From Argonema antarcticum A004/B2 (GTDB lineage: Bacteria; Cyanobacteriota; Cyanobacteriia; Cyanobacteriales; Aerosakkonemataceae): a stretch of DNA of 64,000 nt. Under the pieces are notes generated by a model, which saw only the letters and a list, made by a program, of their open reading frames with translations, was not told where the DNA came from and searched no databases. The number at the start of each line of letters is the position of its first letter. Position 1 is the stretch's first letter. The stretch spans positions 62,001 to 126,000 of the forward strand of contig NZ_JAIQZN010000009.1 in NCBI RefSeq assembly GCF_023333585.1, read 5' to 3'. Shown in pieces: positions 3-19,359 of the stretch. The position numbers and the translations under genes were made by a program.

Positions 3-374
3 AAAGAAGCAAAAGTGCTGCTGGATAACGGACATTACGACGGAGCATACTATCTTTGCGGGTATGCAATAGAATGCGCCTTAAAAGCTTGCATTGCTAA
101 AAAAACGAATAAGTATGACTTCCCAGACAAGAAGACTGTTCTGGACAGCTATACCCACGATTTTAAGAAGCTTGCTCAAGTGGCTGAAATTTCGTCATTT
201 ATAGCACAGGAAAGTAACAGCGATCCACTTTTTGCGGCTAATTGGGCAATTGTTGTACAATGGTCAGAAGAAAGTCGTTACCAAAGATGGACTGAAGCGG
301 AAGCTCGGAGTATCTACAACGCAGTTGCTAAAAGAAATCATGGAGTTTTGCAATGGATAAAGCAATTTTGGTAG
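3..374 (+). CDS. HEPN-domain protein, 5' end cut by window edge
   Basis: The reading frame is open to the first bases of the window, so the gene starts upstream. The GTG at 15 is only an internal codon, because KEAK in frame before it continues the domain. The visible 123 residues contain the helical block GHYDGAYYLCGYAIECALKA typical of HEPN (PF05168) domains. HEPN proteins are small helical bundles, often halves of toxin-antitoxin or abortive-infection pairs. The canonical RNase motif R-x4-6-H is not obvious here (only KRNH near the C-terminus), so ribonuclease activity is uncertain. The stop lies 22 bases inside the next gene, indicating translational coupling. The family call is firm; the function is inferred only. 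Confidence 0.75.
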   Translation, partial: KEAKVLLDNGHYDGAYYLCGYAIECALKACIAKKTNKYDFPDKKTVLDSYTHDFKKLAQVAEISSFIAQESNSDPLFAANWAIVVQWSEESRYQRWTEAEARSIYNAVAKRNHGVLQWIKQFW

Positions 375-7709: not shown

Positions 7710-7830
7710 GCGATCGCCTAACGCTTGCGAACAGCTTCCTGTAGCGTAGCGATCGCACTGTCTTCTCATCACCTAACAAATTGGCGAAAACACTGTTTAA
7801 TCATCGATCCAAAGGGGTATACTTAAACCA
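7710..7830 (+). repeat. About 121-bp direct repeat, copy 1
   Basis: Starts gcgatcgcctaacgcttgcg and ends acttaaacca. It recurs almost unchanged at 8658-8779. The two copies bracket the small gene pair 8038-8573. It contains an inner gcgatcgc pair flanking gcttgcgaacagcttcctgt. Confidence 0.9.
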
Positions 7831-8037: not shown

Positions 8038-8379
8038 ATGCCTATACCATCCCAAATTTTAGCTCTCATTGACCGACTAAATCAAGAACTAGAGCAAACT
8101 GAACGAGATGCTACAGAGGGACTGAACTTAGTCAGACAAAGATTGTCCCGCTTTCCTGATAACGTTGTGCTTACTCAGTTTTTTGCTGCTCTGAGTAATA
8201 TCCTGCTTTTTGTAGAAATATATAGAGGGAGAATTCAGAGTATTGTCGATCGCATCTCGCCAGAAAATGTCGCTAGTGAAATAATTCAGGAGGCGGGAGA
8301 AGATTTAGGAATAATCCTGGGGCGGGTATTGGAAGTTAAAATAAATGCTAATAGGCTCAAAACTCGTTTGGAGAACTGA
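8038..8379 (+). CDS. Small unknown helical protein, first gene of cluster
   Basis: A 113-residue protein I do not recognise. It is almost wholly helical, with an amphipathic N-terminus (LIDRLNQELEQTERDATEGL) suggesting a coiled coil, and no membrane segment or Cys. It ends two bases before the ATG of the next gene, so the two are surely co-transcribed. Together they lie between two copies of a 121-bp repeat, which suggests the pair moved or duplicated as a cassette into the leader of the TerB-like genes. It has codon use and HIP1 sites like its neighbours. Confidence 0.7.
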   Translation: MPIPSQILALIDRLNQELEQTERDATEGLNLVRQRLSRFPDNVVLTQFFAALSNILLFVEIYRGRIQSIVDRISPENVASEIIQEAGEDLGIILGRVLEVKINANRLKTRLEN

Positions 8380-8381
8380 CA

Positions 8382-8573
8382 ATGACACAACCATCAATGA
8401 GCGAACAGGAACTAGCCGAACTGACAGAACTGCTTGAACTTGCGAAAATAACCGAACAAAAAGCTAAAGAATTGTGCGACCTGACATTGGAAATAGACCA
8501 AAAATATGAAAAACGTTTGGCCGAGTTAAGAGTTGCTGAAAAATTGAAATTGAAAGTTGCGGGAATTTCGTAA
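8382..8573 (+). CDS. Small coiled-coil protein, second gene of cluster
   Basis: 63 residues, dominated by a heptad-like charged helix (ELAELTELLELAKITEQKAK, then EIDQKYEKRLAEL). It follows the previous gene with a 2-base gap and probably forms a complex with it, by inference. No family recognised. The start MTQPSMSEQE resembles the MTQPN start of the 619-residue protein downstream, and the LELAK string is also shared, hinting at a common origin of the leaders, though this may be chance. Confidence 0.65.
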   Translation: MTQPSMSEQELAELTELLELAKITEQKAKELCDLTLEIDQKYEKRLAELRVAEKLKLKVAGIS

Positions 8574-8657
8574 GATGAAGGAATGGTGTAATATCACACT
8601 CCTAACTAATTACTGAGGTCTAACGACTAAGTGAGAAGTCCTGGGAAATTGATGAGT

Positions 8658-8779
8658 GCGATCGCCTAACGCTTGCGAACAGCTTCCTGTAGCGTAGCGA
8701 TCGCACTGTCTTCTCATCACCTAACAAATTGGTGAAAACACTGTTTAATTATTCATCCAAAGGGAGTAGACTTAAACCA
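8658..8779 (+). repeat. About 122-bp direct repeat, copy 2
   Basis: Matches 7710-7830 with few substitutions and a one-base length difference near the end (aaaggggtat versus aaagggagta). It forms most of the leader of the 619-codon gene that starts at 8808. Confidence 0.9.
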
Positions 8780-8807
8780 ATGGTTAAAGTCCTCACCTCT
8801 GCCAATT

Positions 8808-10667
8808 ATGACTCAGCCGAATCTTCTGGAACTTGCCAAGCAGGGCGATGTGAATGCGATCGCAACCCTGATGAACCGCAAGCTACAACCCAAAGGCATC
8901 ACTGCAAAAGCTTCCATGAAAAATGATTGTCTGCAAATCATGTTGGAAGCGGCGCAAGTGCCACCGCAAGAAACTTTGGTTTCCCTGCTGCGTAAGTCGA
9001 TACCGAGTTTAGGGGCTGAGTCGATTAAGCGCGTAAAGGTTTACGGCAAACAGGTAGGGGAAGAATTTCCGGCTTGGAATGAGGAATTTGAGGTAGAAGC
9101 GCAGAAGTTGCCGAATGGGGAAGAGTTGGCTAAACAGGGTGATGTGAATGCGATCGCAACTTTGATTAATCAGTGGTTAAACTCCGAAAGCATTACTGCA
9201 AAAGTGAGTCATAAAGATAGTTGCTTACAGGTAATGCTGATATCAGCCCAAGTTCCAAAACAACAGACAGTTGTTCCGCCGATTCGTGAGGGATTGATAA
9301 GTTTAGGTATTCAATCTGTCAAAAAAGTCAAGATATACGGACGAGAAACGGGTGAGGATTTTCCTGATTGGCAACAATACTTTGAGTTAGAAGAACAGAT
9401 AAATTTACCTTCGTTAACATCTGAAGCAGCAACAAAAGTTGAAAATTTGACTTCTATTATCAAAACAGAAGCAGATAGCCAATCATCTATAGAAAAGAGG
9501 TCTAACCAACCATCTTTTTGGGGTTCAATTACTAAGATGGCTACAAATGCTGGAGGTGCGATCGCAGGCGCTACCATGCAAGCAGGTAAAGCGGCGATGG
9601 GGAAAACGCCAGAAATTGGCGGTGCGATCGCAGGCGCTACCATGCAAGCAGGCAAAGCGGCGATGGGGAAAGCTTCAGAAGTTGGCGGTGCGATCGCAGG
9701 TACTGCCACCCAAGCAGGTAAAGCAGTTGTCAAAACAGCTACATATTATGTAGTTGCGCCCATCGTTGATACTACTGGCAAAACAATTGAAAGAGCCAAA
9801 AAGGTAAGCACTGATTGGCTAATCCGCTTCATAGACAAAGTTGATATAGTTAAAGCCGAAGCGGAAGTAAGACAGCTAGAGCAGCAGTACCCCGACGAAA
9901 AGCCAAGTCAGATTGCCCATCATCTGATGCTAAATAAAGCGCTGCTTGCAGCAGGATCTGGGCTAGCTAGCAACTTGCTGCCGGGAGCAGCGCTGGCAAT
10001 GGCAGGAGTCGATTTGGCAGCTACTACTGCATTGTCAGCAGAATTGGTTTATCAGATTGCCGCTGCTTATGGACAGGATTTACAATCGAGCGATCGCAAG
10101 GGCGAAGTCCTCACAATTTTCGGTCTGTCTCTTGGTGGTAATTTAGCGATCGATGCAGGTTTGGGCTTGTTGCGAAAGGTGCCGATTGCAGGGGCAGTGA
10201 TTAATGCCAGCGCTAGTGCAGCAATGATCTATGCACTGGGATATGGAGCTTGTCGTTTCTACGAAGCCAAAAACGAGCCATTGACTATGGAAGCTATACT
10301 TGAAACTTCTCTGGTAGAAAGTGAAAAGTATTTAGAGGGTGCGATCGAGCAACAAGTAGTCATGGATCAAATTTTGGTTCATGTTGTTTTGGCAGATAAT
10401 CCAGACAAAACTTGGCCGGAGATTTTGCCAGAATTACAAACGTTGAATCTGAGTCCCGCTTCAATGGATGCGATCGCTGCCAATATCAAATCACGACCAC
10501 CTTTAGAAACATTGCTGGAGCAAATCAATAGCGACTTTGCTGTACCGCTTCTGGCTCAATGCGAAAAACTTGCACAGCTAGATGGAGTTATTACTCTTGA
10601 AGAAGCGAAGGTAATTGAGACTATTACCAAAAACTTTGGTATCGAAATTAATTCCATCGTTAAATAA
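8808..10667 (+). CDS. Large cluster protein: twin N-terminal modules, YcjF/DUF697-like core, TerB-like end
   Basis: 619 residues. Two tandem N-terminal modules of about 100 residues each begin LAKQGDVNAIATL (near 6 and 107) and contain ESIKRVKVYGKQVGEEFP or its variant. A 22-residue tandem repeat with GGAIAGATMQAGKAAMGK follows (about 250-310). A hydrophobic helical core (about 380-490; SNLLPGAALAMAGVDLAATT) resembles DUF697/YcjF or EcsC membrane-associated domains. The C-terminus (about 585-619; CEKLAQLDGVITLEEAKVIE) looks like a partial TerB helix pair. Function unknown. The gene stops 22 bases before the next start, so the two are probably one operon. A membrane-surface scaffold or stress-response role is inference. 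Confidence 0.7.
   Translation: MTQPNLLELAKQGDVNAIATLMNRKLQPKGITAKASMKNDCLQIMLEAAQVPPQETLVSLLRKSIPSLGAESIKRVKVYGKQVGEEFPAWNEEFEVEAQKLPNGEELAKQGDVNAIATLINQWLNSESITAKVSHKDSCLQVMLISAQVPKQQTVVPPIREGLISLGIQSVKKVKIYGRETGEDFPDWQQYFELEEQINLPSLTSEAATKVENLTSIIKTEADSQSSIEKRSNQPSFWGSITKMATNAGGAIAGATMQAGKAAMGKTPEIGGAIAGATMQAGKAAMGKASEVGGAIAGTATQAGKAVVKTATYYVVAPIVDTTGKTIERAKKVSTDWLIRFIDKVDIVKAEAEVRQLEQQYPDEKPSQIAHHLMLNKALLAAGSGLASNLLPGAALAMAGVDLAATTALSAELVYQIAAAYGQDLQSSDRKGEVLTIFGLSLGGNLAIDAGLGLLRKVPIAGAVINASASAAMIYALGYGACRFYEAKNEPLTMEAILETSLVESEKYLEGAIEQQVVMDQILVHVVLADNPDKTWPEILPELQTLNLSPASMDAIAANIKSRPPLETLLEQINSDFAVPLLAQCEKLAQLDGVITLEEAKVIETITKNFGIEINSIVK
9556..9735 (+). repeat. 66-bp in-frame tandem repeat inside 619-residue gene
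   Basis: Two nearly identical 66-base units and a diverged partial third encode the 22-residue unit GGAIAGATMQAGKAAMGK plus four residues. Each unit starts with a gcgatcgc HIP1 site. The unit keeps the frame, so copy number could vary without loss of the protein. Confidence 0.85.
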
Positions 10668-10689
10668 AAGTGGGAAATCTAGATTAATT

Positions 10690-11757
10690 ATGGCACAATC
10701 TAATTTTTGGGAATCAATCACAGAAACAGCCGCCAATGCCGGAAAAGCTATTGGTAATGCGGCATCACAAGCTACTAAAGCCGCAGCAGAAACAGCCGCC
10801 AATGCTGGTACATCTGTTAGCACCGCTGCATTTCAGGCAACTCTAGCAGCCACAGATATGCTAAAAAAAGGTGAAAACTCAAACCCACAGCAACCCTTAG
10901 ATTTGGCCCAAGTACCGGAGAGCGATCGCATTTCTTTCTACGGTGCTTTATTTGCCATTGCGACAGCCGATGGTTCCCTCGACAAAGACGAAATCGATCT
11001 AATTTTTGGCATCATGGATTTAGATGGAATGTCTGAATCTGCCAAACGCCAAGTGCAATCATATATTATTGAGCCTCCATCATTACAACATTGCTTAAAA
11101 GCGTTGTCAAATGCAGACGAAAAACTGCGTTTTGGATTGATGTTAAACCTTATAGACACTGCATGGGCAAACGATGAACTCGACCCGAATGAAGAAAAAG
11201 CAATTAAGTTGGCACAGCAAGAATTAGGCGTCACGGATAAACAGGTAGAAGCCATTGAAAAATTTGTCCAAGAAATAAAGAAAATTCGCGATCGCGGTTT
11301 AGATGACAACCAAGCTGCTGACGCGATTAAAACTGCTGCTTCTGGGCTTTCTGCCGTTGGCGTTCCCATTGCTGCCGTTTATTTTTCTGGTTCCGTGATA
11401 GGATTGAGCGCAGCCGGAATTACATCAGGATTAGCAGCACTTGGTTTAGGTTTTGGGATGGTTCCCGGTATTGGCGTTGCCGTTCTTTTAGGTGCAGGTA
11501 TTTTTTGGGGAGTATCCCAACTTTTGGATACGGGAGGTACACGCGCCAAAGAAGAAGAAATGCTCAAAAGAGAAAGGAAAGCACAACTTGTAATTCAAAA
11601 TCTGCAAGGCGCACTCAATCAATTAATCGAAAGAATAGATAATTTACAAAAAGCTGCTGCTGATGCCGAAACTAATCGAGAAGCGATTCAGATTTTAACT
11701 GAAAAAATGCGATATCTCCAGCAATTACTTGCCAAACGGAAACCAGCACAAATTTAA
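10690..11757 (+). CDS. TerB-like domain protein with hydrophobic hairpin
   Basis: The start is taken at the ATG before AQSNFWESITETAANAG, 22 bases after the previous stop; an upstream frame extension from 10615 overlaps the previous gene and looks spurious. 355 residues. Residues about 1-60 are Ala-rich helices resembling the SFWGSITKMATNAG part of the preceding protein. A TerB-like domain follows (about 80-190) with two acidic helix-loop motifs, TADGSLDKDEIDL and ANDELDPNEEKAI, typical of tellurite-resistance/metal-sensing TerB folds. Then come Gly/Ala-rich hydrophobic helices (about 230-290) and a C-terminal coiled coil. Probable membrane-associated partner of its neighbours; substrate unknown. 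Confidence 0.8.
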   Translation: MAQSNFWESITETAANAGKAIGNAASQATKAAAETAANAGTSVSTAAFQATLAATDMLKKGENSNPQQPLDLAQVPESDRISFYGALFAIATADGSLDKDEIDLIFGIMDLDGMSESAKRQVQSYIIEPPSLQHCLKALSNADEKLRFGLMLNLIDTAWANDELDPNEEKAIKLAQQELGVTDKQVEAIEKFVQEIKKIRDRGLDDNQAADAIKTAASGLSAVGVPIAAVYFSGSVIGLSAAGITSGLAALGLGFGMVPGIGVAVLLGAGIFWGVSQLLDTGGTRAKEEEMLKRERKAQLVIQNLQGALNQLIERIDNLQKAAADAETNREAIQILTEKMRYLQQLLAKRKPAQI

Positions 11758-11772
11758 GTATTAGGTACGTTA

Positions 11773-11796
11773 TTGCGCTTTAGCGCTAAAGCGCAA
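11773..11796. repeat. gcgctttagcgc palindrome, copy 1
   Basis: A perfect 24-bp palindrome centred on gcgctttagcgctaaagcgc, between the TerB-like gene and the next gene of the cluster. Related copies lie at 33909-33944, 35040-35106, 54536-54590 (half) and 61331-61361. It may terminate or attenuate transcription inside the cluster. Confidence 0.85.
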
Positions 11797-11819
11797 CAAC
11801 ATACTCAGAGGAGTTTAAA

Positions 11820-13265
11820 ATGATTTGCGATCGCTTTGTTGCCGAGTTAAGATCTGTACTGCAAACACAGCATCATATCCTGCGCCAGCTTGATGTTGCA
11901 GTCACAGATATAGAAGTAAAACTAGCAGATGTTTCCCAGCAATCTCAAGATATTCAAGAACTTGAGAAAATGATAGCAGAATTAGAAGCATCTGTCGATT
12001 TTCTTGATGCAGATGACTTCAGTGATTTTGATGCAGATGAGATTTTACAATTGTACGATCGTCGTCGCAATGCTGTCAATCGAGAGTTAGTAAAAATTGG
12101 TTTCAAAGATTGGGATAGTTTTGTCAGACAGTGCCAAATTTACGCACTTCAGCAACAACTCGATCCGCTTGCACCTTACGAAGCTTTTTTAACAGATGCA
12201 GACTTGAATAAATTGCAAAATGAATCCTACGATGCACAGTACGCCTGGGATAAATGGGATTATATTTTTGTTGGCGCTAGTGGCGTTTTGGCAGCATTAA
12301 CTGATTTCATGTTAGTCAGAATTCCCGCCACGATGACTAGCGGCGAATATAGCGGACAAATCGGCAGTCCTCTCACCGCATGGCTAAAGCAATACAATAT
12401 TAAAAAAGCCGATGATTGGTTTGCACAATGGGCGAAATATCTAGAAAAAGTCTGCAAAGTTCCTTATGATAATCAGAAACTTATTGGGGGAATGTATCCC
12501 AAATCTCATCGCTTCCAATCATTAGGACACGATCCCGTTTTGGGATTTATTTTTGGTGTCCTTGACATCATGCGAGGAAGCGTTACTGGTTTTTCCTACG
12601 AAACGCTTACTGGGATGCACAATTTAGAGATTAAATTTGTGCCAAATAGCCAACCTGTCGGACTAATTGAAGCTATTTTAAAACATATCGGCCATTTAAT
12701 TTCTGATGTTGCAACGCCGATGGGATTACCCGCGCCATTTATGACTTTAGTGCAAGGAATCAATGCTGGTAGCTTTGGCGAAAATAATCGAACTTTGGGA
12801 GAATTATCGCGATGGATGTATTTGAATGGCTACGATTTTCGGCATTTTCTAGTATCGGGAATTACACCAGCGGTAATAGAAATCGTGCTGAGAGCTTATA
12901 TAATGTTAAGGCACTATTCCGAACATGGGGAAACTAAATTTATTTTAAACGACCATCCCAAATATCGTTCTATGCTGCTGGTAGCGCATAGTATTGCTGC
13001 TTTGGGAAATGCAGGTAAAATTGCACTCATGCAAGGTAATCCGTTAGCTTTCAATTTAGCAGAATGGATGGCTTTGATTCGGTATCTTTTACCCAGCCTT
13101 AAGTATTGGGTGTTTGACGAACATCGCCTGCGCCTGGAACAGATAGAGCGAATTAACGAAGCTGGTTGGAATGAACTATTGCAAAATAGTGAAAAAATTG
13201 TGGAAATTATTGCTAAAACTGAATCTTCCTCGATCGATCTCGTACACTTGCCAGTTTTGTGTTAG
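11820..13265 (+). CDS. Unknown 481-residue protein closing the TerB-like cluster
   Basis: I do not recognise this family. The N-terminal 70 residues form a coiled coil (VAVTDIEVKLADVSQQSQDI) followed by an acidic patch (DADDFSDFDADEI). The remainder is helical, with several moderately hydrophobic stretches (WDYIFVGASGVLAALTDFML near 145; a segment around GFIFGVLDIMRG; LLVAHSIAALGNAGKIALMQ near 390). It may be a peripheral or polytopic membrane protein. A good ribosome-binding site (gaggag) lies just before the ATG at 11820. It is co-directional with the upstream four genes but separated from them by a palindrome. Clear coding pattern; function unknown. Confidence 0.7.
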   Translation: MICDRFVAELRSVLQTQHHILRQLDVAVTDIEVKLADVSQQSQDIQELEKMIAELEASVDFLDADDFSDFDADEILQLYDRRRNAVNRELVKIGFKDWDSFVRQCQIYALQQQLDPLAPYEAFLTDADLNKLQNESYDAQYAWDKWDYIFVGASGVLAALTDFMLVRIPATMTSGEYSGQIGSPLTAWLKQYNIKKADDWFAQWAKYLEKVCKVPYDNQKLIGGMYPKSHRFQSLGHDPVLGFIFGVLDIMRGSVTGFSYETLTGMHNLEIKFVPNSQPVGLIEAILKHIGHLISDVATPMGLPAPFMTLVQGINAGSFGENNRTLGELSRWMYLNGYDFRHFLVSGITPAVIEIVLRAYIMLRHYSEHGETKFILNDHPKYRSMLLVAHSIAALGNAGKIALMQGNPLAFNLAEWMALIRYLLPSLKYWVFDEHRLRLEQIERINEAGWNELLQNSEKIVEIIAKTESSSIDLVHLPVLC

Positions 13266-13317: not shown

Positions 13318-13863
13318 TCATCTAAGTAACTGTGGATTACCCGTAATAATCGTCAAATCTTCACCCTGAAAATCAGCATCGTGCGTCACCAACTTCAGCC
13401 CTTTTGTCCTGCACAATTCAGCTAATATCTGGTCATTAAAATCCTTCTCTCCAGTCGCGTAATCGCTCATTATTGGGATCAAATCTGCTGACTCAAAACC
13501 GCTCTCAGTTCGCTCAGACTTCTCTAGTATTCTCCGAGAGTATTTGGCAATTTGTTCGGCAACAGGTTTGAAATCAGCACTATTCCTGAAAGCCTTAAAA
13601 TTTTCTTGTTTTGTAGTTTCGGACAAATTGTTGTAAACAAATCGAGAGTAGGCATTAATAAATTCAGAAAGCACAAGCACGTCGAGCAATATTCGACCTT
13701 TCGCACTGCGAATCCGCCTAAATGCCCAAGTATATGCTCTCCGGTATTGAGGATATCGATCGCCATGCGGCCCATAAATGTAAAGCCAAACATTTGCATC
13801 AAACAACACAGCATCAGCATTGCCAAATATATATTGATCGATGCTGTAGACTTGGTTACTCAT
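13318..13863 (-). CDS. PIN domain protein, putative ribonuclease toxin
   Basis: The start is set at the ATG before SNQVYSIDQ, which overlaps the upstream gene by 8 bases. 181 residues. PIN-fold acidic residues are visible: Asp22 in LFDANVWLYIY, the Glu in LVLSEFINAYSR, and the Asp pair in KDFNDQILAELC and VTHDADFQG. PIN proteins of this size are usually Mg2+-dependent RNases of VapC-like toxins. It is the second gene of a two-gene operon with the STAS-like protein, which occupies the antitoxin position. Target RNA unknown; the toxin role is inferred from fold and context. Confidence 0.85.
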   Translation of the reverse strand: MSNQVYSIDQYIFGNADAVLFDANVWLYIYGPHGDRYPQYRRAYTWAFRRIRSAKGRILLDVLVLSEFINAYSRFVYNNLSETTKQENFKAFRNSADFKPVAEQIAKYSRRILEKSERTESGFESADLIPIMSDYATGEKDFNDQILAELCRTKGLKLVTHDADFQGEDLTIITGNPQLLR

Positions 13864-14245
13864 AGTAATCACCGAAAGCTTCCCGTGCAGCTGCCTCAAA
13901 TCTCTGCGGGTCTTTTAAATACTGCTTTGTCCAATAAATTGCGTCATCAATCATGTCCGCATCATCAGTATCTATATCAATTACGCTGAGTGATGTTTGA
14001 ATTTGCTCTTCGGGAAACGTGGCGTACAAATGACCGATCGCATCGCTTAAGAAAGCAGGAGTGATATCCTCACCATTTTTAAACGAAAGAATCACATTTT
14101 TACCTTCTTTAAAAGCTGTTGCAATCAGTTCATAAACTTTCTGTCCGTCATCTGAGGCTATACACAAATTGTCTCCGATAACTTCCGTTACCACAATTTT
14201 GACGGTATTCTCGGTTTGGGGATGGGAGTAAATTAAGGAATTCAT
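13856..14245 (-). CDS. STAS-like (DUF4325) protein, putative antitoxin partner
   Basis: 129 residues. The middle matches the DUF4325 STAS-like pattern: DGQKVYELIATAFKEGKNVI, then LSFKNGEDITPAFLSDAIG. STAS-like folds are small alpha/beta proteins used for protein-protein control. The C-terminal 45 residues are acidic (DIDTDDADMIDDAIYW) and could bind a partner, a frequent property of antitoxins. The stop overlaps the PIN start by 8 bases, upstream in the operon as expected for an antitoxin. No DNA-binding domain is visible, so autoregulation would need another mode. Confidence 0.75.
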   Translation of the reverse strand: MNSLIYSHPQTENTVKIVVTEVIGDNLCIASDDGQKVYELIATAFKEGKNVILSFKNGEDITPAFLSDAIGHLYATFPEEQIQTSLSVIDIDTDDADMIDDAIYWTKQYLKDPQRFEAAAREAFGDYYE

Positions 14246-14676: not shown

Positions 14677-16779
14677 TTAAGCAGCAACCAAACCGTTATG
14701 CCTCAGCAAAGCTACCACACTCGGTTCCCTTCCTCGGAAAGCTTTAAACACTTCCATCGGGTGCAAACTCCCACCAGAAGCTAACACCGTATCCCGGAAG
14801 CGCAAACCAGTATTAGTTAAAGCTTTCTCATCCTCCAAACCGGCTTCTTCAAAAGCAGCAAAAGCATCTGCACTCAATACTTCTGCCCACTTGTAGCTGT
14901 AATAACCAGCTGCATAACCGCCAGCAAAGATATGCCCAAACGCACATAAGAAAGCGTCTTCTGGCAAAGGTGGCAAAATAGTAGTGGTTTTGGCAAGACG
15001 GTTACGCACATCAGCGGGAGTTTCATCGCCACCAGGTTGATAGCGATGGTGCAATTCTATGTCAAGGCTGCTAAAGTGAATTTGCCGCAACGTTACACTG
15101 CCACTCATGTAATTGCGTGCAGCCAATAGCTTTTGATAATACTCTTCTGGCAGGGTTTCACCAGTTTCGTAATGCTTCGCCATACCGAACAGTGTTTCCT
15201 GGTGATAGCACCAGTTTTCCATAAACTGGCTGGGCAATTCGACGGCATCCCACTCTATATTATTGATGCCTGATGCTCCCGGATAATCCACTTTGGTCAG
15301 CATATGTTGCAAGCCGTGACCGAATTCGTGGAACAATGTTTCCACTTCGCCAAAAGTCATTAGGCTAGGCTTATCATCTATCGGAGGAGTTTGGTTGCAT
15401 ACCAAATATGCTACTGGTAAGCGAGTAGTGGATGTACCATTTTCGATGATTTTGGCGCGGACTATGCACTCATCCATCCAAGCACCGCCGCGTTTTTCGG
15501 CTGGACGACTGAAAGGATCTAAATAGAAGTAAGCTATTGGTGTACCAGTTTCATCAGCAATTTGAAAATAACGCACATCTTCATGCCACACTGGCGCAGT
15601 ACCATCGGCTGCGGTGATAGTGACGCCAAACAACCTTTTTGCTAATGAGAACAACCCATCTAAAACTTGGGGTAAGGGAAAGTAAGGGCGCAATTCTTCT
15701 GCATTGAAGGCAAATTTTTCTTCCCGTTGGCGTTCTGACCAAAAACTAACATCCCAGTGCTTCAAATCGCTACTTTCTTTAACACCTTTAGCAGCAGCAA
15801 AGGCTTTCAATTCTTCCAAATCTTTGGCAGCAGCATCGTAACTAACGCGGCGCAGTTCTTCTAGCAAAGCTTCTACTGCTTCAACAGAAGGAGCCATTTT
15901 GCGGGCTAAGCTTAATTCAGCGTAACTGTTAAAGCCGAGCAGCGCTGCTTTTTCCTTACGTAATTGTAAGATGCGATCGATCGACGGTTTGTTATCCAAT
16001 TCCCCACTAGAAGCGCGGCTGATGAAAGCTTTATACAGCTTTTCGCGCAAATCTCGACGGGTGCTGTGCTGCATGAAAGGGCCATAACTGGGGAAATCTA
16101 AGGTGATCCGCCAAGGGCCATTCTCAGGGGTGGCGTTTTCTTCACCGGCTGCACGCGCCGATTGTGCTGCTAAACTCAGTAAGCTTGGGGGTAATCCGTC
16201 AACTTCCTCAAAGCTTGTCAGGGTAAGGCTAAAGGCTTTGGTGGCGTCGAGTACGTGGTTGGAAAATTTGGTGGAAAGTTCTGCCAGTTCCAGTTGAATG
16301 GCATTGAAACGCTCTTTCTGTTCGCCTGACAAACCGACGCCAGAAAGTTCTGCGTCTTTGATGGCAGTTTCCACAATGCGGTGTTGTGCTGATTCTAGAG
16401 TAGCCCAGCGATCGCTCTCACGCAATGCCTTAAAAGCGTCGTAGATAGGTTTGCTTTGGCTGAGCTTGTTGTAAAACTGCACCAGTTTTGGCTGCACAGT
16501 TTCGTGGGCTAGGCGCAGTTCGGGGCTATTCTTGACGCCCATCAAATGGCTCACCGCGCCCCAACTCCAGTTTAGGGGATCTTTCAGGCGATCTAGTGGC
16601 TCTACCAAACCGCTCCAAGTCGGCTCTAACTGAGCTGACAAGCTGGCAAGATCGGCGTCTAGTTTAGCCAGCAGCTGTTCAAAAGCAGGCACCACATACT
16701 CTGGCTTAATGGCTTCAAACGGGGGCAATCCTTTGCCAATTAGCAAAGGGTTCTCAGTAATAGTAGCGTTGTCACTCAT
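14677..16779 (-). CDS. prlC: M3 family oligopeptidase A
   Basis: 700 residues, the usual length of oligopeptidase A/PrlC. It hydrolyses short cytosolic peptides, including signal-peptide fragments. The zinc motif HEFGHGLQH is intact with His484, Glu485 and His488; the third ligand region ELPSQFMENWCY follows. The N-terminus NPLLIGKGLPPFEAIKPEYV is the usual opening of the family. The start ATG at 16779 fits this conserved opening. Monocistronic. No irregularities. Confidence 0.95.
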   Translation of the reverse strand: MSDNATITENPLLIGKGLPPFEAIKPEYVVPAFEQLLAKLDADLASLSAQLEPTWSGLVEPLDRLKDPLNWSWGAVSHLMGVKNSPELRLAHETVQPKLVQFYNKLSQSKPIYDAFKALRESDRWATLESAQHRIVETAIKDAELSGVGLSGEQKERFNAIQLELAELSTKFSNHVLDATKAFSLTLTSFEEVDGLPPSLLSLAAQSARAAGEENATPENGPWRITLDFPSYGPFMQHSTRRDLREKLYKAFISRASSGELDNKPSIDRILQLRKEKAALLGFNSYAELSLARKMAPSVEAVEALLEELRRVSYDAAAKDLEELKAFAAAKGVKESSDLKHWDVSFWSERQREEKFAFNAEELRPYFPLPQVLDGLFSLAKRLFGVTITAADGTAPVWHEDVRYFQIADETGTPIAYFYLDPFSRPAEKRGGAWMDECIVRAKIIENGTSTTRLPVAYLVCNQTPPIDDKPSLMTFGEVETLFHEFGHGLQHMLTKVDYPGASGINNIEWDAVELPSQFMENWCYHQETLFGMAKHYETGETLPEEYYQKLLAARNYMSGSVTLRQIHFSSLDIELHHRYQPGGDETPADVRNRLAKTTTILPPLPEDAFLCAFGHIFAGGYAAGYYSYKWAEVLSADAFAAFEEAGLEDEKALTNTGLRFRDTVLASGGSLHPMEVFKAFRGREPSVVALLRHNGLVAA

Positions 16780-17064
16780 TTGTAGTTTTTCGGCTCGTAT
16801 TGAAACAAGTTACTTAAAGTATTAGCAAGTCTTGGCAAATTTTAACATATATGTTACGATTTGGCTCCAAACAACCTTTCAACTGCTGACAAGATTGATT
16901 ATAGCCAATTTCTAAATTATAAAACGCATTTGCTTTTATAATTACTAGGACGCTGTGGAAATTCCATCGCCAGCAAAAAGCGATCTTGGCTGTAGCCCAG
17001 ATCTGATTTTATCCGATCTGAGCGATATTTTTAAGTTGCCAAGGCGCTGCATTATAATACAATT

Positions 17065-19359
17065 TTATTTTTTTGCTGGCGTTGCGGTGTTCTGATTTTG
17101 CTGTCGAATTGGAATCTTAATCACGAACTCCGTCCCCTGTTTTTCTTCGGAATTACACTCCAATTTACCGCCGTGTCTTTCCACAATAATTTGATAACTA
17201 ATTGACAAACCCAGTCCTGTACCTTTACCCACTTGTTTTGTTGTAAAGAATGGGTCAAATATTCTTTGCTTCACTTCAGATCTTATACCAGGTCCGTTGT
17301 CAGAAATCTTGATGACCGCGTAATCCCTATCTATTACTTCGGTGTGAATGCTAATCTTACTAACATTCTTTTGCATCTCTTGGGATGAACACTCTTTGTG
17401 GTAATCATCCATAGCATCGATCGCATTGCTGAGAATATTCATGAATACTTGGTTCATCGGGCCTGGATAACACTCCACTTGAGGAAGATCGCCGTATTTT
17501 TTGACAACTTCAATATTAGGCTCTCCCGCCTTAAATTTGAGGCGATTTTGCAAAATCAGCAGCGTGCTATCAATACCTTCGTGGATGTTAACAGGTTTCA
17601 TCTCTGCTTCGTCAAGGCGCGAGAAGTTCCGTAGCGACAGGACAATCTGACAAATGCGCTCAACACCCAGTTTCATTGAAGACAGTATTTTGGGTAAATC
17701 CTCAACCAGAAAATCGAGTTCAATGGCGTCCATTTTCTCTTGAATCTGCGCTCCTGGGTTAGGATAGTGTTGGTGGAATAGTTGTAGCAATTCTAACAAT
17801 TCTTGAGTGTATTGATTGACATAATTGAGATTCCCGCTGATAAAGTTTACCGGGTTATTAATTTCGTGAGCCACCCCTGCTACCAGTAATCCCAAACTGG
17901 ACATTTTTTCACTATGGACGAGTTGAGTGTGGGTGCGTTGCAATTCGTTTAAAGTTTCTTCCAGCCTAGTTGCTTGCTCTCTAGATCGAGTTTCCGATCG
18001 CCGCAATGCTTCCTCCGCCTGCTTGCGTTCGGTAATGTTCTGAGTCATGACCATGCCAGCAAAAATTTCGTCGCGATCGTTTCTCAGCGGCAAAACGTGA
18101 GTATCGTAGATATAGTCGCCCCAAGGCAATTCGCAGACAGTTGTTGTTCCAGCTAATGCTCCCCGATATATTGGCTCTATTATTTCACAGAACTCAGGGG
18201 ATAAACTCTCCCAAATTATCTTCCCTTCCAATAACTCTTTAGAAATTTCTCCTGCTCCTAAATCTGTACCTTCAACAAGGGTGTAGCGTAAGTCTCGATC
18301 GAACAGAAACACCGCCCCATTGGGTAAATTACGAGCCAGAGTGCGATATAATTCTTCGCTGTTTCGCAGTGCTTCTTCCACCTGTTTGCGTTCGGTGATG
18401 TCGGTTTGCACTCCGATGAAATGAGTCAATTTACCAGTGCTAGAGCGCACGGGAGAAATTGCCAAATCGTTCCAAAAAACGCTGCCATCTTTACGGTAAT
18501 TCTTAATCACAACCCGACATTCGCTTTGAGTACTCAAAGCTTGACGAATTTTCTCCACCGCAGCTTCTTCCGTATCATCACCCTGCAAAAATCGACAGTT
18601 ACGCCCAAGCACTTCATCCCGCGAATAGCCTGTCATCGTTTCAAAGGCAGGATTGCAATGCACAATCGGATTGTCCGGTTTGGTTGCATCAATAATCAGG
18701 ATGCCGGAACCAGCCGCTTCCATAGCTCGACTGTACAGCCTCAGCATCTCTTCTGTCTTTCTGCGATCGGTAATGTCGCGCAGGGTAACCAGATAGGCTA
18801 CTTCCCCTTCCCATTCTGTTTCCACCACCCGCATTTCTGCCACAAGTTTTTCTTGGTCTTTGCGGATAACTTCTACTTGTGTTTGGACTACATATATTCC
18901 TGCTGTATCTGTTTCTCCAACTCCAGGAATAATTTCAGTGTCCATCTCGCAAACTATCCCTTCAACTACAAGGCATCCGAAAAATTCTTTACCTAAAATT
19001 TCCGACTCGTCGCAATTGAAAAGAGATTGAGCGCATGGGTTTACAAAACAGACAATGCCTTTTTGGTTGACTATCACTATGCCATCCGCACTCTTAGCGA
19101 TCGCATTATGAAAGCGGGCTTCGCTGGCTTGTAACTCTCGCTCTAGCCTCTCCAGTTCTATTTGCATATCGTGCCGACTCCTTTCCTTAGAGCAAGAATA
19201 ATCAATCTGTCCCAAAGTAGAACCCTCTCTATCTTTATAAGTCCTATATACTCGCAAGTAACTTTCTATGGATTTTTTATATAAATAACCTTGCGATTGT
19301 TGACTTTTTGTTTTGCTTGCCATTTTTTTGTTTTGGTTGCTATGGTTTTCAGGAATCAT
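17065..19359 (-). CDS. Multi-PAS sensor histidine kinase with LOV signature
   Basis: 764 residues, no membrane segment. Domains: PAS1 (about 80-200), PAS2 (about 215-330), PAS3 (about 340-455), HisKA-type dimerisation helix with His498 in VAGVAHEINNPVNF, and an HATPase (NQVFMNILSNAIDAMDD; DNGPGI; GTGLGLSIS). PAS2 carries the flavin-binding LOV motif GRNCRFLQG with the photoactive Cys255, plus NYRKDGSVFWN and FIGVQTDIT, which hold the other FMN-contacting Asn and Gln positions. It is therefore a probable blue-light kinase. No receiver gene is adjacent, so the partner is unknown. A nearby ATG (codon 13) is an alternative start. Confidence 0.88.
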   Translation of the reverse strand: MIPENHSNQNKKMASKTKSQQSQGYLYKKSIESYLRVYRTYKDREGSTLGQIDYSCSKERSRHDMQIELERLERELQASEARFHNAIAKSADGIVIVNQKGIVCFVNPCAQSLFNCDESEILGKEFFGCLVVEGIVCEMDTEIIPGVGETDTAGIYVVQTQVEVIRKDQEKLVAEMRVVETEWEGEVAYLVTLRDITDRRKTEEMLRLYSRAMEAAGSGILIIDATKPDNPIVHCNPAFETMTGYSRDEVLGRNCRFLQGDDTEEAAVEKIRQALSTQSECRVVIKNYRKDGSVFWNDLAISPVRSSTGKLTHFIGVQTDITERKQVEEALRNSEELYRTLARNLPNGAVFLFDRDLRYTLVEGTDLGAGEISKELLEGKIIWESLSPEFCEIIEPIYRGALAGTTTVCELPWGDYIYDTHVLPLRNDRDEIFAGMVMTQNITERKQAEEALRRSETRSREQATRLEETLNELQRTHTQLVHSEKMSSLGLLVAGVAHEINNPVNFISGNLNYVNQYTQELLELLQLFHQHYPNPGAQIQEKMDAIELDFLVEDLPKILSSMKLGVERICQIVLSLRNFSRLDEAEMKPVNIHEGIDSTLLILQNRLKFKAGEPNIEVVKKYGDLPQVECYPGPMNQVFMNILSNAIDAMDDYHKECSSQEMQKNVSKISIHTEVIDRDYAVIKISDNGPGIRSEVKQRIFDPFFTTKQVGKGTGLGLSISYQIIVERHGGKLECNSEEKQGTEFVIKIPIRQQNQNTATPAKK

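Follow-up and report, generated by a model that had tools for sequence, protein, structure and literature searches.

Bunzi is a two-gene anti-phage system composed of BnzA and BnzB, which was reportedly described in 2022. In the excerpts of the literature that mention Bunzi no mechanism is described, and the table taken from a 2026 review lists it among the systems of unknown mechanism (PMC12926258). Another tabulated overview pairs the TerB domain with Shango and Bunzi (PMC10952713), and the available part of a Salmonella study reports Bunzi as often plasmid-borne, on IncHI1 plasmids above all (PMC11305592). Here we analyze five open reading frames (ORFs) at positions 8038–13265 of a 64,000-nucleotide (nt) stretch, the window, from the 7.74 Mb genome of the cyanobacterium Argonema antarcticum A004/B2 (contig NZ_JAIQZN010000009.1, positions 62,001 to 126,000). 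The initial annotation of this DNA had proposed an undescribed five-gene, membrane-associated system with a possible role in the phage response. All five ORFs are real and are located on the + strand. The locus is indeed of the phage-response type, but its core is already known and the border had been drawn too wide: ORF4 and ORF5 correspond to Bunzi in PADLOC, and ORF1–ORF3 were seen next to BnzB in close relatives only.

Judging from their sequences, ORF4 and ORF5 very probably constitute a cyanobacterial Bunzi locus. ORF5, which had been regarded as a 481-residue unknown, matches the BnzB profile over nearly its full length. ORF4 matches the BnzA profile, carries a TerB domain and is located directly before ORF5 on the same strand. 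The TerB assignment, already made in the initial annotation, holds above the curated Pfam cut-off and in comparison with five further TerB domains from this genome, while Pfam returned nothing credible for ORF5. For ORF4 the start at 10690 is more likely than a longer form, because the latter overlaps with ORF3. With this start 22 bases separate ORF3 from ORF4 and 62 bases separate ORF4 from ORF5. The gap between the two Bunzi genes contains an inverted repeat (11765–11804) with 20-nt arms that are 90% complementary. The closest BnzB relatives are cyanobacterial, namely from an uncultured cyanobacterium (95%) and Microcoleus vaginatus (73%). A role in the phage response is thus well supported by the family for these two genes, and this copy would be expected to have anti-phage activity. 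The two genes and their parts are:

10690–11754, + strand: ORF4, BnzA, 355 amino acids (aa); PADLOC BnzA profile 3.5e-43, positions 127–442 of 544
10690–10869, + strand: N-terminal FW tag of BnzA with amphipathic repeats; moment peak 98.0 degrees, reached by 2/500 shuffles; DNA repeat D4
10873–11259, + strand: TerB domain of BnzA (approximate limits); Pfam TerB 1e-8, hhalign 96%
11344–11487, + strand: Gly/Ala-rich hydrophobic hairpin of BnzA, residues 219–266; two hydropathy windows (1.65 and 2.04); the part that the family conserves
11557–11739, + strand: C-terminal coiled-coil-like segment of BnzA (approximate limits); alignment, and weak profile matches in solved structures, many of them coiled coils
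11820–13262, + strand: ORF5, BnzB, 481 aa; PADLOC BnzB profile 4.3e-85, positions 13–503 of 504
11829–11990, + strand: N-terminal long helix of BnzB, residues 4–57; AlphaFold2 model with a predicted local distance difference test (pLDDT) score of about 60–70 there
12171–13205, + strand: core of BnzB, residues 118–462, with invariant H230, R231, H237, D238, D249, H292 and D296; 37-sequence alignment and core model

The pairing of BnzA and BnzB is kept across phyla. A single scan of genome contigs returned 25 loci with a BnzB relative. Among 57 loci with a BnzB core, there are 52 in which a hairpin/coiled-coil partner precedes BnzB on the same strand at a distance of at most 2.5 kilobases (kb); since the partner profile was built from the partner in the window and 24 of these loci, this count measures adjacency and not independent discovery. 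The 57 loci exclude the window itself and L045–L047 from the weak genomes G076, G093 and G381, which have no BnzB core. Six loci repeat the core of another one; counted by distinct core sequences the partner is present in 46 of 51, and in 35 of 38 clusters at 90% identity. No partner was found in five loci: L056, L063, L058, L087, which is from a Streptococcus phage, and L138, whose copy is broken. In L056 and in the partly masked L063, amphipathic repeats precede BnzB within one ORF. The pair was found in records named Cyanobacteria, Chloroploca, Viridilinea, Rubrobacter, Planctomycetota, Bacteroidetes and Verrucomicrobiaceae, many of them metagenome-assembled genomes (MAGs), as well as in viral contigs and on two plasmids that were read. 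BnzB itself was matched in 10 of 386 genomes of the cyanobacterial phylum at E ≤ 0.001 (seven of them strong). Plasmid records contain it in 496 of 72,556 cases (436 predicted conjugative) and phage records in 3 of 50,697, and viral contigs contributed 20 loci. In the same genus, the syntenic locus of genome G387 (L138) retains ORF1–ORF2 at 100% and stumps of ORF3 and BnzB, and has no BnzA. Between the two stumps lies a gene that joins a HEPN_Swt1 domain to a phosphonate-binding-protein-like one (L138:6622–8526, - strand), a replacement as expected of turning-over defence genes.

When aligning 25 partners we found that the Gly/Ala-rich hydrophobic part and the coil are the constant part of the BnzA family. 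TerB is detected in 13 of them (E ≤ 0.01). The remaining 12, in none of which TerB was detected, were sorted by alignment and ORF reading into five with a different helical N-terminus, six with almost none and one with an ADP-ribosylglycohydrolase domain. The partners nearly devoid of an N-terminal domain are 165–184 aa long and come from an IncHI2A plasmid and from viral contigs; in viral contig L130 (2295–3671) the ADP-ribosylglycohydrolase domain (1.5e-34) is fused to the BnzA hairpin. By these alignments the N-terminus of BnzA is exchangeable, with the hairpin/coiled coil and BnzB as the fixed core, and the distribution suggests that TerB is optional in the wider Bunzi family. In L064, from a Ruminiclostridium MAG, BnzB is directly followed by a separate ADP-ribosylglycohydrolase gene (2.9e-78; 9247–10305).

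The alignment of 37 BnzB cores contains 23 invariant columns. The model of the core alone is confident (pLDDT 84.8, predicted TM score (pTM) 0.80) and better than that of the whole protein (75.9 and 0.57). Six hydrophobic windows in BnzB suggest that its helical core may be membrane-facing or membrane-embedded. The hydrophobic segments of both proteins support the membrane association that had been proposed for this locus, and both are probably located at the membrane. The invariant polar residues suggest that BnzB is an enzyme, probably a metal-dependent one. In structure searches the best Foldseek hits against the PDB have E-values of 0.092 (whole BnzB) and 0.10 (core), and the best BFVD hit, searched with the core only, has 0.16; at E ≤ 0.001 neither database returned a match, although such a non-match is no proof of a new fold. 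VIA-align gave best Z-scores of 6.2 for the whole protein and 6.7 for the core (93 residues, 4.0 Å root-mean-square deviation), which is unremarkable for a helical protein. Profile matches among solved sequences are weak, confined to the N-terminal helical part and mostly to influenza HA2 chains. REase_II, GatB and BLOC1 matches of BnzB and the small ORFs were dismissed as weak.

The remaining three ORFs of the locus and their features are:

8038–8376, + strand: ORF1, 113 aa, member of a multicopy family, outside Bunzi; 11 matches in its own genome, some partial; no Pfam match
8382–8570, + strand: ORF2, 63 aa, partner of ORF1; beside ORF1 homologues in 10/12 loci, window included
8808–10664, + strand: ORF3, 619 aa, EcsC-related; twin N-terminal module, amphipathic repeats, half TerB-like end
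9504–9797, + strand: ORF3 residues 233–330, FW tag and three 22-residue amphipathic repeats; DNA repeat family D1, moment peak 97 degrees, reached by 0/500 shuffles
9879–10133, + strand: EcsC match of ORF3, residues 358–442; Pfam EcsC (PF12787) 2.2e-6, 28.0 bits against a cut-off of 30.4

ORF3 is EcsC-related, although its own score is just below the Pfam cut-off; the initial annotation had seen YcjF/DUF697-like domains in the cluster. In 26 of 26 aligned sequences EcsC is matched at E ≤ 0.01, and the homologue in L049 exceeds the cut-off with 30.9 bits. The DUF697 (PF05128) likeness is weak: it was found in 3 of 26 sequences (best E 0.0048), and hhalign gave 36% over 31 columns. In genome G229 a place overlapping an ORF3-family match passes the PF05128 cut-off together with its neighbours. 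Of the supposed TerB-like end a half-motif of about 36 residues is left, and its match is weak (hhalign 61%; Pfam E 0.016 in one homologue). The twin N-terminal modules are borne out by 95-nt DNA copies that are 72% identical, and in one search both halves match the same stretch in three loci of relatives (L010–L012). This tandem module of about 100 residues (residues 1–200, 8808–9407) has no Pfam match and recurs in numerous cyanobacterial open frames that vary widely in length. Some part of ORF3 matches 123 of the 386 genomes of the phylum, many via the N-terminal module alone.

ORF3 (residues 233–330) and ORF4 (residues 1–60) have in common an FW-containing block followed by 22-residue repeats. 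The SFWGSITK/SNFWESITE resemblance noted earlier is upheld: 52 residues align at 46% identity, with an E-value of 7e-7 when 30 loci were searched. We analyzed seven hand-picked amphipathic stretches from Bunzi loci (ORF3, ORF4, two from L049 and one each from L056, L057 and L061). The hydrophobic moment peaks at 97–98.5 degrees in six of them and at 100.5 degrees in one, and for the six stretches other than ORF4 none of 500 shuffles reached the observed moment. Exact 11- or 22-residue repeats force peaks at multiples of 360/22 degrees, of which 98.2 is one of few possible, and shuffling destroys the repeat. The test is thus not independent of repeat length; it shows amphipathic periodicity and not lipid binding. 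According to the available part of a study on such helices, 11-residue, three-turn (3-11) helices (98.2 degrees) occur in perilipins, alpha-synuclein and apolipoproteins, and Plin4 has a bias for small residues (PMC8064757). Our stretches resemble the 11-mer repeats of perilipins and alpha-synuclein in the position of the moment peak and in the Plin4-like bias for small residues; they differ in that Plin4 is said in the same text to be almost without W and F (PMC8064757), whereas the tag opens with FW. This likeness is one of pattern and no homology is claimed. By analogy the tag may serve as a lipid-surface anchor. In L105 (G411), on the - strand, the FW tag and a region like the TerB part of ORF4 are combined with another C-terminus, DUF1232-like by eye. 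Tag and TerB seem to be shuffled among cyanobacterial proteins.

ORF1–ORF2 is a separate two-gene cassette. ORF1, which contains a hydrophobic stretch at residues 43–61, has relatives in 23 of 60 related genomes, with many copies in some; its 100% copy in G387 is located in a genome without a match to ORF4 (P0004). ORF2 shows a weak Pfam GatB match below the cut-off. A five-gene operon was rejected, since ORF1–ORF2 is present in none of the 34 loci searched and is a multicopy cassette elsewhere; three of these loci (L045–L047) have no BnzB core and several have short flanks, so that distant neighbours may be missed there. No BnzB match occurs in 12 short stretches around ORF1 and its homologues, and the sole P0004 match there comes from the ORF3 tag, in the stretch taken from the window. 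When comparing four further stretches with the window we found ORF1–ORF2 only in the syntenic G387 locus, in which BnzA has been lost. The cassette is flanked by a 107-nt direct repeat (7710–7816 and 8658–8764, 96% identical). With only two genome copies at E ≤ 0.001 (40 of 65 first-look candidates scored) it seems not to be a dispersed element. Downstream of the locus (13321–14245, - strand) lie a PIN-domain gene and, upstream of it, a STAS-like DUF4325 gene, which are kept beside the locus in G386 and G387; the two are possibly a toxin-antitoxin-like pair.

Overall, we consider it probable that the locus comprises a Bunzi pair, an EcsC-related neighbour and a separate cassette, and that the pair works broadly as follows. 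The profile identity, the pairing, the modular N-terminus, the conserved residues and the hydrophobic segments are observed; membrane location, TerB signalling, catalysis and the anti-phage activity of this copy are what we infer. BnzA would sit on the cytoplasmic membrane via its Gly/Ala-rich hydrophobic hairpin, here reinforced by the N-terminal amphipathic repeat, and would pair with BnzB by its coiled coil. The exchangeable N-terminal domain, TerB in this case, could receive or relay an infection signal. BnzB, with its helical core and invariant His, Asp, Arg and Asn residues, would act as an effector resembling an enzyme, its most likely activity being that of a metal-dependent hydrolase at the membrane. 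This specific division of labour between BnzA and BnzB is put forward tentatively. Several observations weigh against parts of this reading. BnzA covers only the middle of its PADLOC profile. Profile and structure searches found no known hydrolase family or fold for BnzB. A motif likeness to YdjM/DUF457 (H..HD, H...D...G.P.P) was not supported on testing: hhalign against this family (PF04307), the sole hydrolase family tested, gave 0.6–1.7% with shallow alignments, the default ones spanning 20–42 columns around the second half of the motif. H342 is absent, by eye, in the relatives from the IncHI2A plasmid and the Streptococcus phage. Furthermore, the PADLOC matches of the other genes in the window do not show a defence island (E ≤ 1e-5, 35 of 49 other ORFs of at least 110 aa): they are PDC-S03 (two proteins, best 3.4e-87), mad3 (5.7e-26), mad8 (4.4e-6) and PDC-M28A (window 3–371). 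Two of the nearest downstream genes (14680–19359) gave no match.

The short gaps between the co-directional ORF3, ORF4 and ORF5 raise the question whether ORF3 is a third, lineage-specific component that acts with BnzA through the common membrane tag. In its own genome the tag is limited to ORF3 and ORF4 (E ≤ 0.001), and in both L049 and G402 (L136) BnzA as well as the EcsC-type protein next to it begins with the tag. Nevertheless, such an extended system is distinctly unlikely. ORF3 accompanies Bunzi in L048, L049 and G402, and among the 34 loci searched, several of them short-flanked, it matches only in L048 and L049. At the other ORF3-family loci, BnzA (beyond the tag) or BnzB is present within at most 1.5 kb in 0 of 29 cases. 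In G386 (L139), whose BnzB sequence equals that of L048, ORF3 is in two pieces in different frames, while BnzA and BnzB are open and 91–95% identical to those of the window. ORF3 is therefore unnecessary for the persistence of the pair, and we regard it as a neighbour or optional accessory that may have a helper role in this lineage.

The roles within the pair could also be the opposite, with BnzA as the effector, a pore former resembling alpha-pore-forming toxins that inserts its hairpin upon infection, and BnzB as sensor or regulator. The hairpin and coiled coil are the fixed part of BnzA, and in NCBIfam the 25 partners show weak matches to alpha-pore-forming MakA (2/25, best 7.8e-5) and NheB (1/25, 0.0017). 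However, ORF4 reaches only 17.1 bits against MakA, whose cut-off is 320, and such matches may reflect the Gly/Ala-rich composition. In addition, it is BnzB that has the invariant polar residues one would look for in an active site, and we consider a pore-forming BnzA unlikely. That the locus is not a defence system at all, but responds to membrane stress or to tellurite and metals as the TerB label might indicate, is very improbable. TerB is present in ORF4, and six of the seven TerB matches of this genome lie elsewhere, yet the pair matches two separate Bunzi profiles, about half of the partners have no detectable TerB, and BnzB relatives are located in phage records, viral contigs and plasmids.

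Retaining BnzA as adaptor and BnzB as effector, a more general and rather doubtful proposal is that Bunzi might be a membrane platform built of modules. Its invariant hairpin/coiled-coil adaptor with a swapped N-terminus (TerB, other helical, ADP-ribosylglycohydrolase or perilipin-like repeats) would deliver the invariant BnzB, whose core would be an enzyme fold without a solved relative. If true, the chemistry of BnzB would add a novel kind of effector activity to phage defence. The comparison of 57 loci separates the fixed core from the exchangeable domains, names BnzB residues to mutate and makes tests of the mechanism direct. While Bunzi itself was already known, new here are the split into fixed and exchangeable parts, the amphipathic tag in common with the neighbouring ORF3 and the unmatched BnzB core.

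Among the PADLOC candidates, PDC-M09A is matched by all four tested of the five partners with a different helical N-terminus. These BnzB-upstream partners are from Dolichospermum, Ruminiclostridium, Priestia and Stahlbacteria, and in each case the next gene matches BnzB; no such match is listed for ORF4, and our literature search did not find the name PDC-M09A. LeoBC, which we take to belong to Eleos, is matched by the TerB-hairpin-coil region of BnzA at 5.3e-6 in PADLOC, but this score is far under that of BnzA, and Pfam finds no dynamin-like family in the five ORFs. The match of ORF4 to LmuB, presumably of Lamassu, is weak (0.014 in PADLOC) and not credible as membership. With Shango, for which the TerB domain is tabulated as it is for Bunzi (PMC10952713), the locus has this domain in common, and none of the five proteins matches a Shango-named PADLOC profile at E ≤ 0.1. 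With Bunzi it shares both genes, their order and strand, a TerB-type BnzA and a nearly full-length BnzB. It differs from Bunzi in the shorter BnzA (355 aa against a 544-position profile), in the FW tag and amphipathic repeats before TerB, and in the EcsC-related gene upstream.

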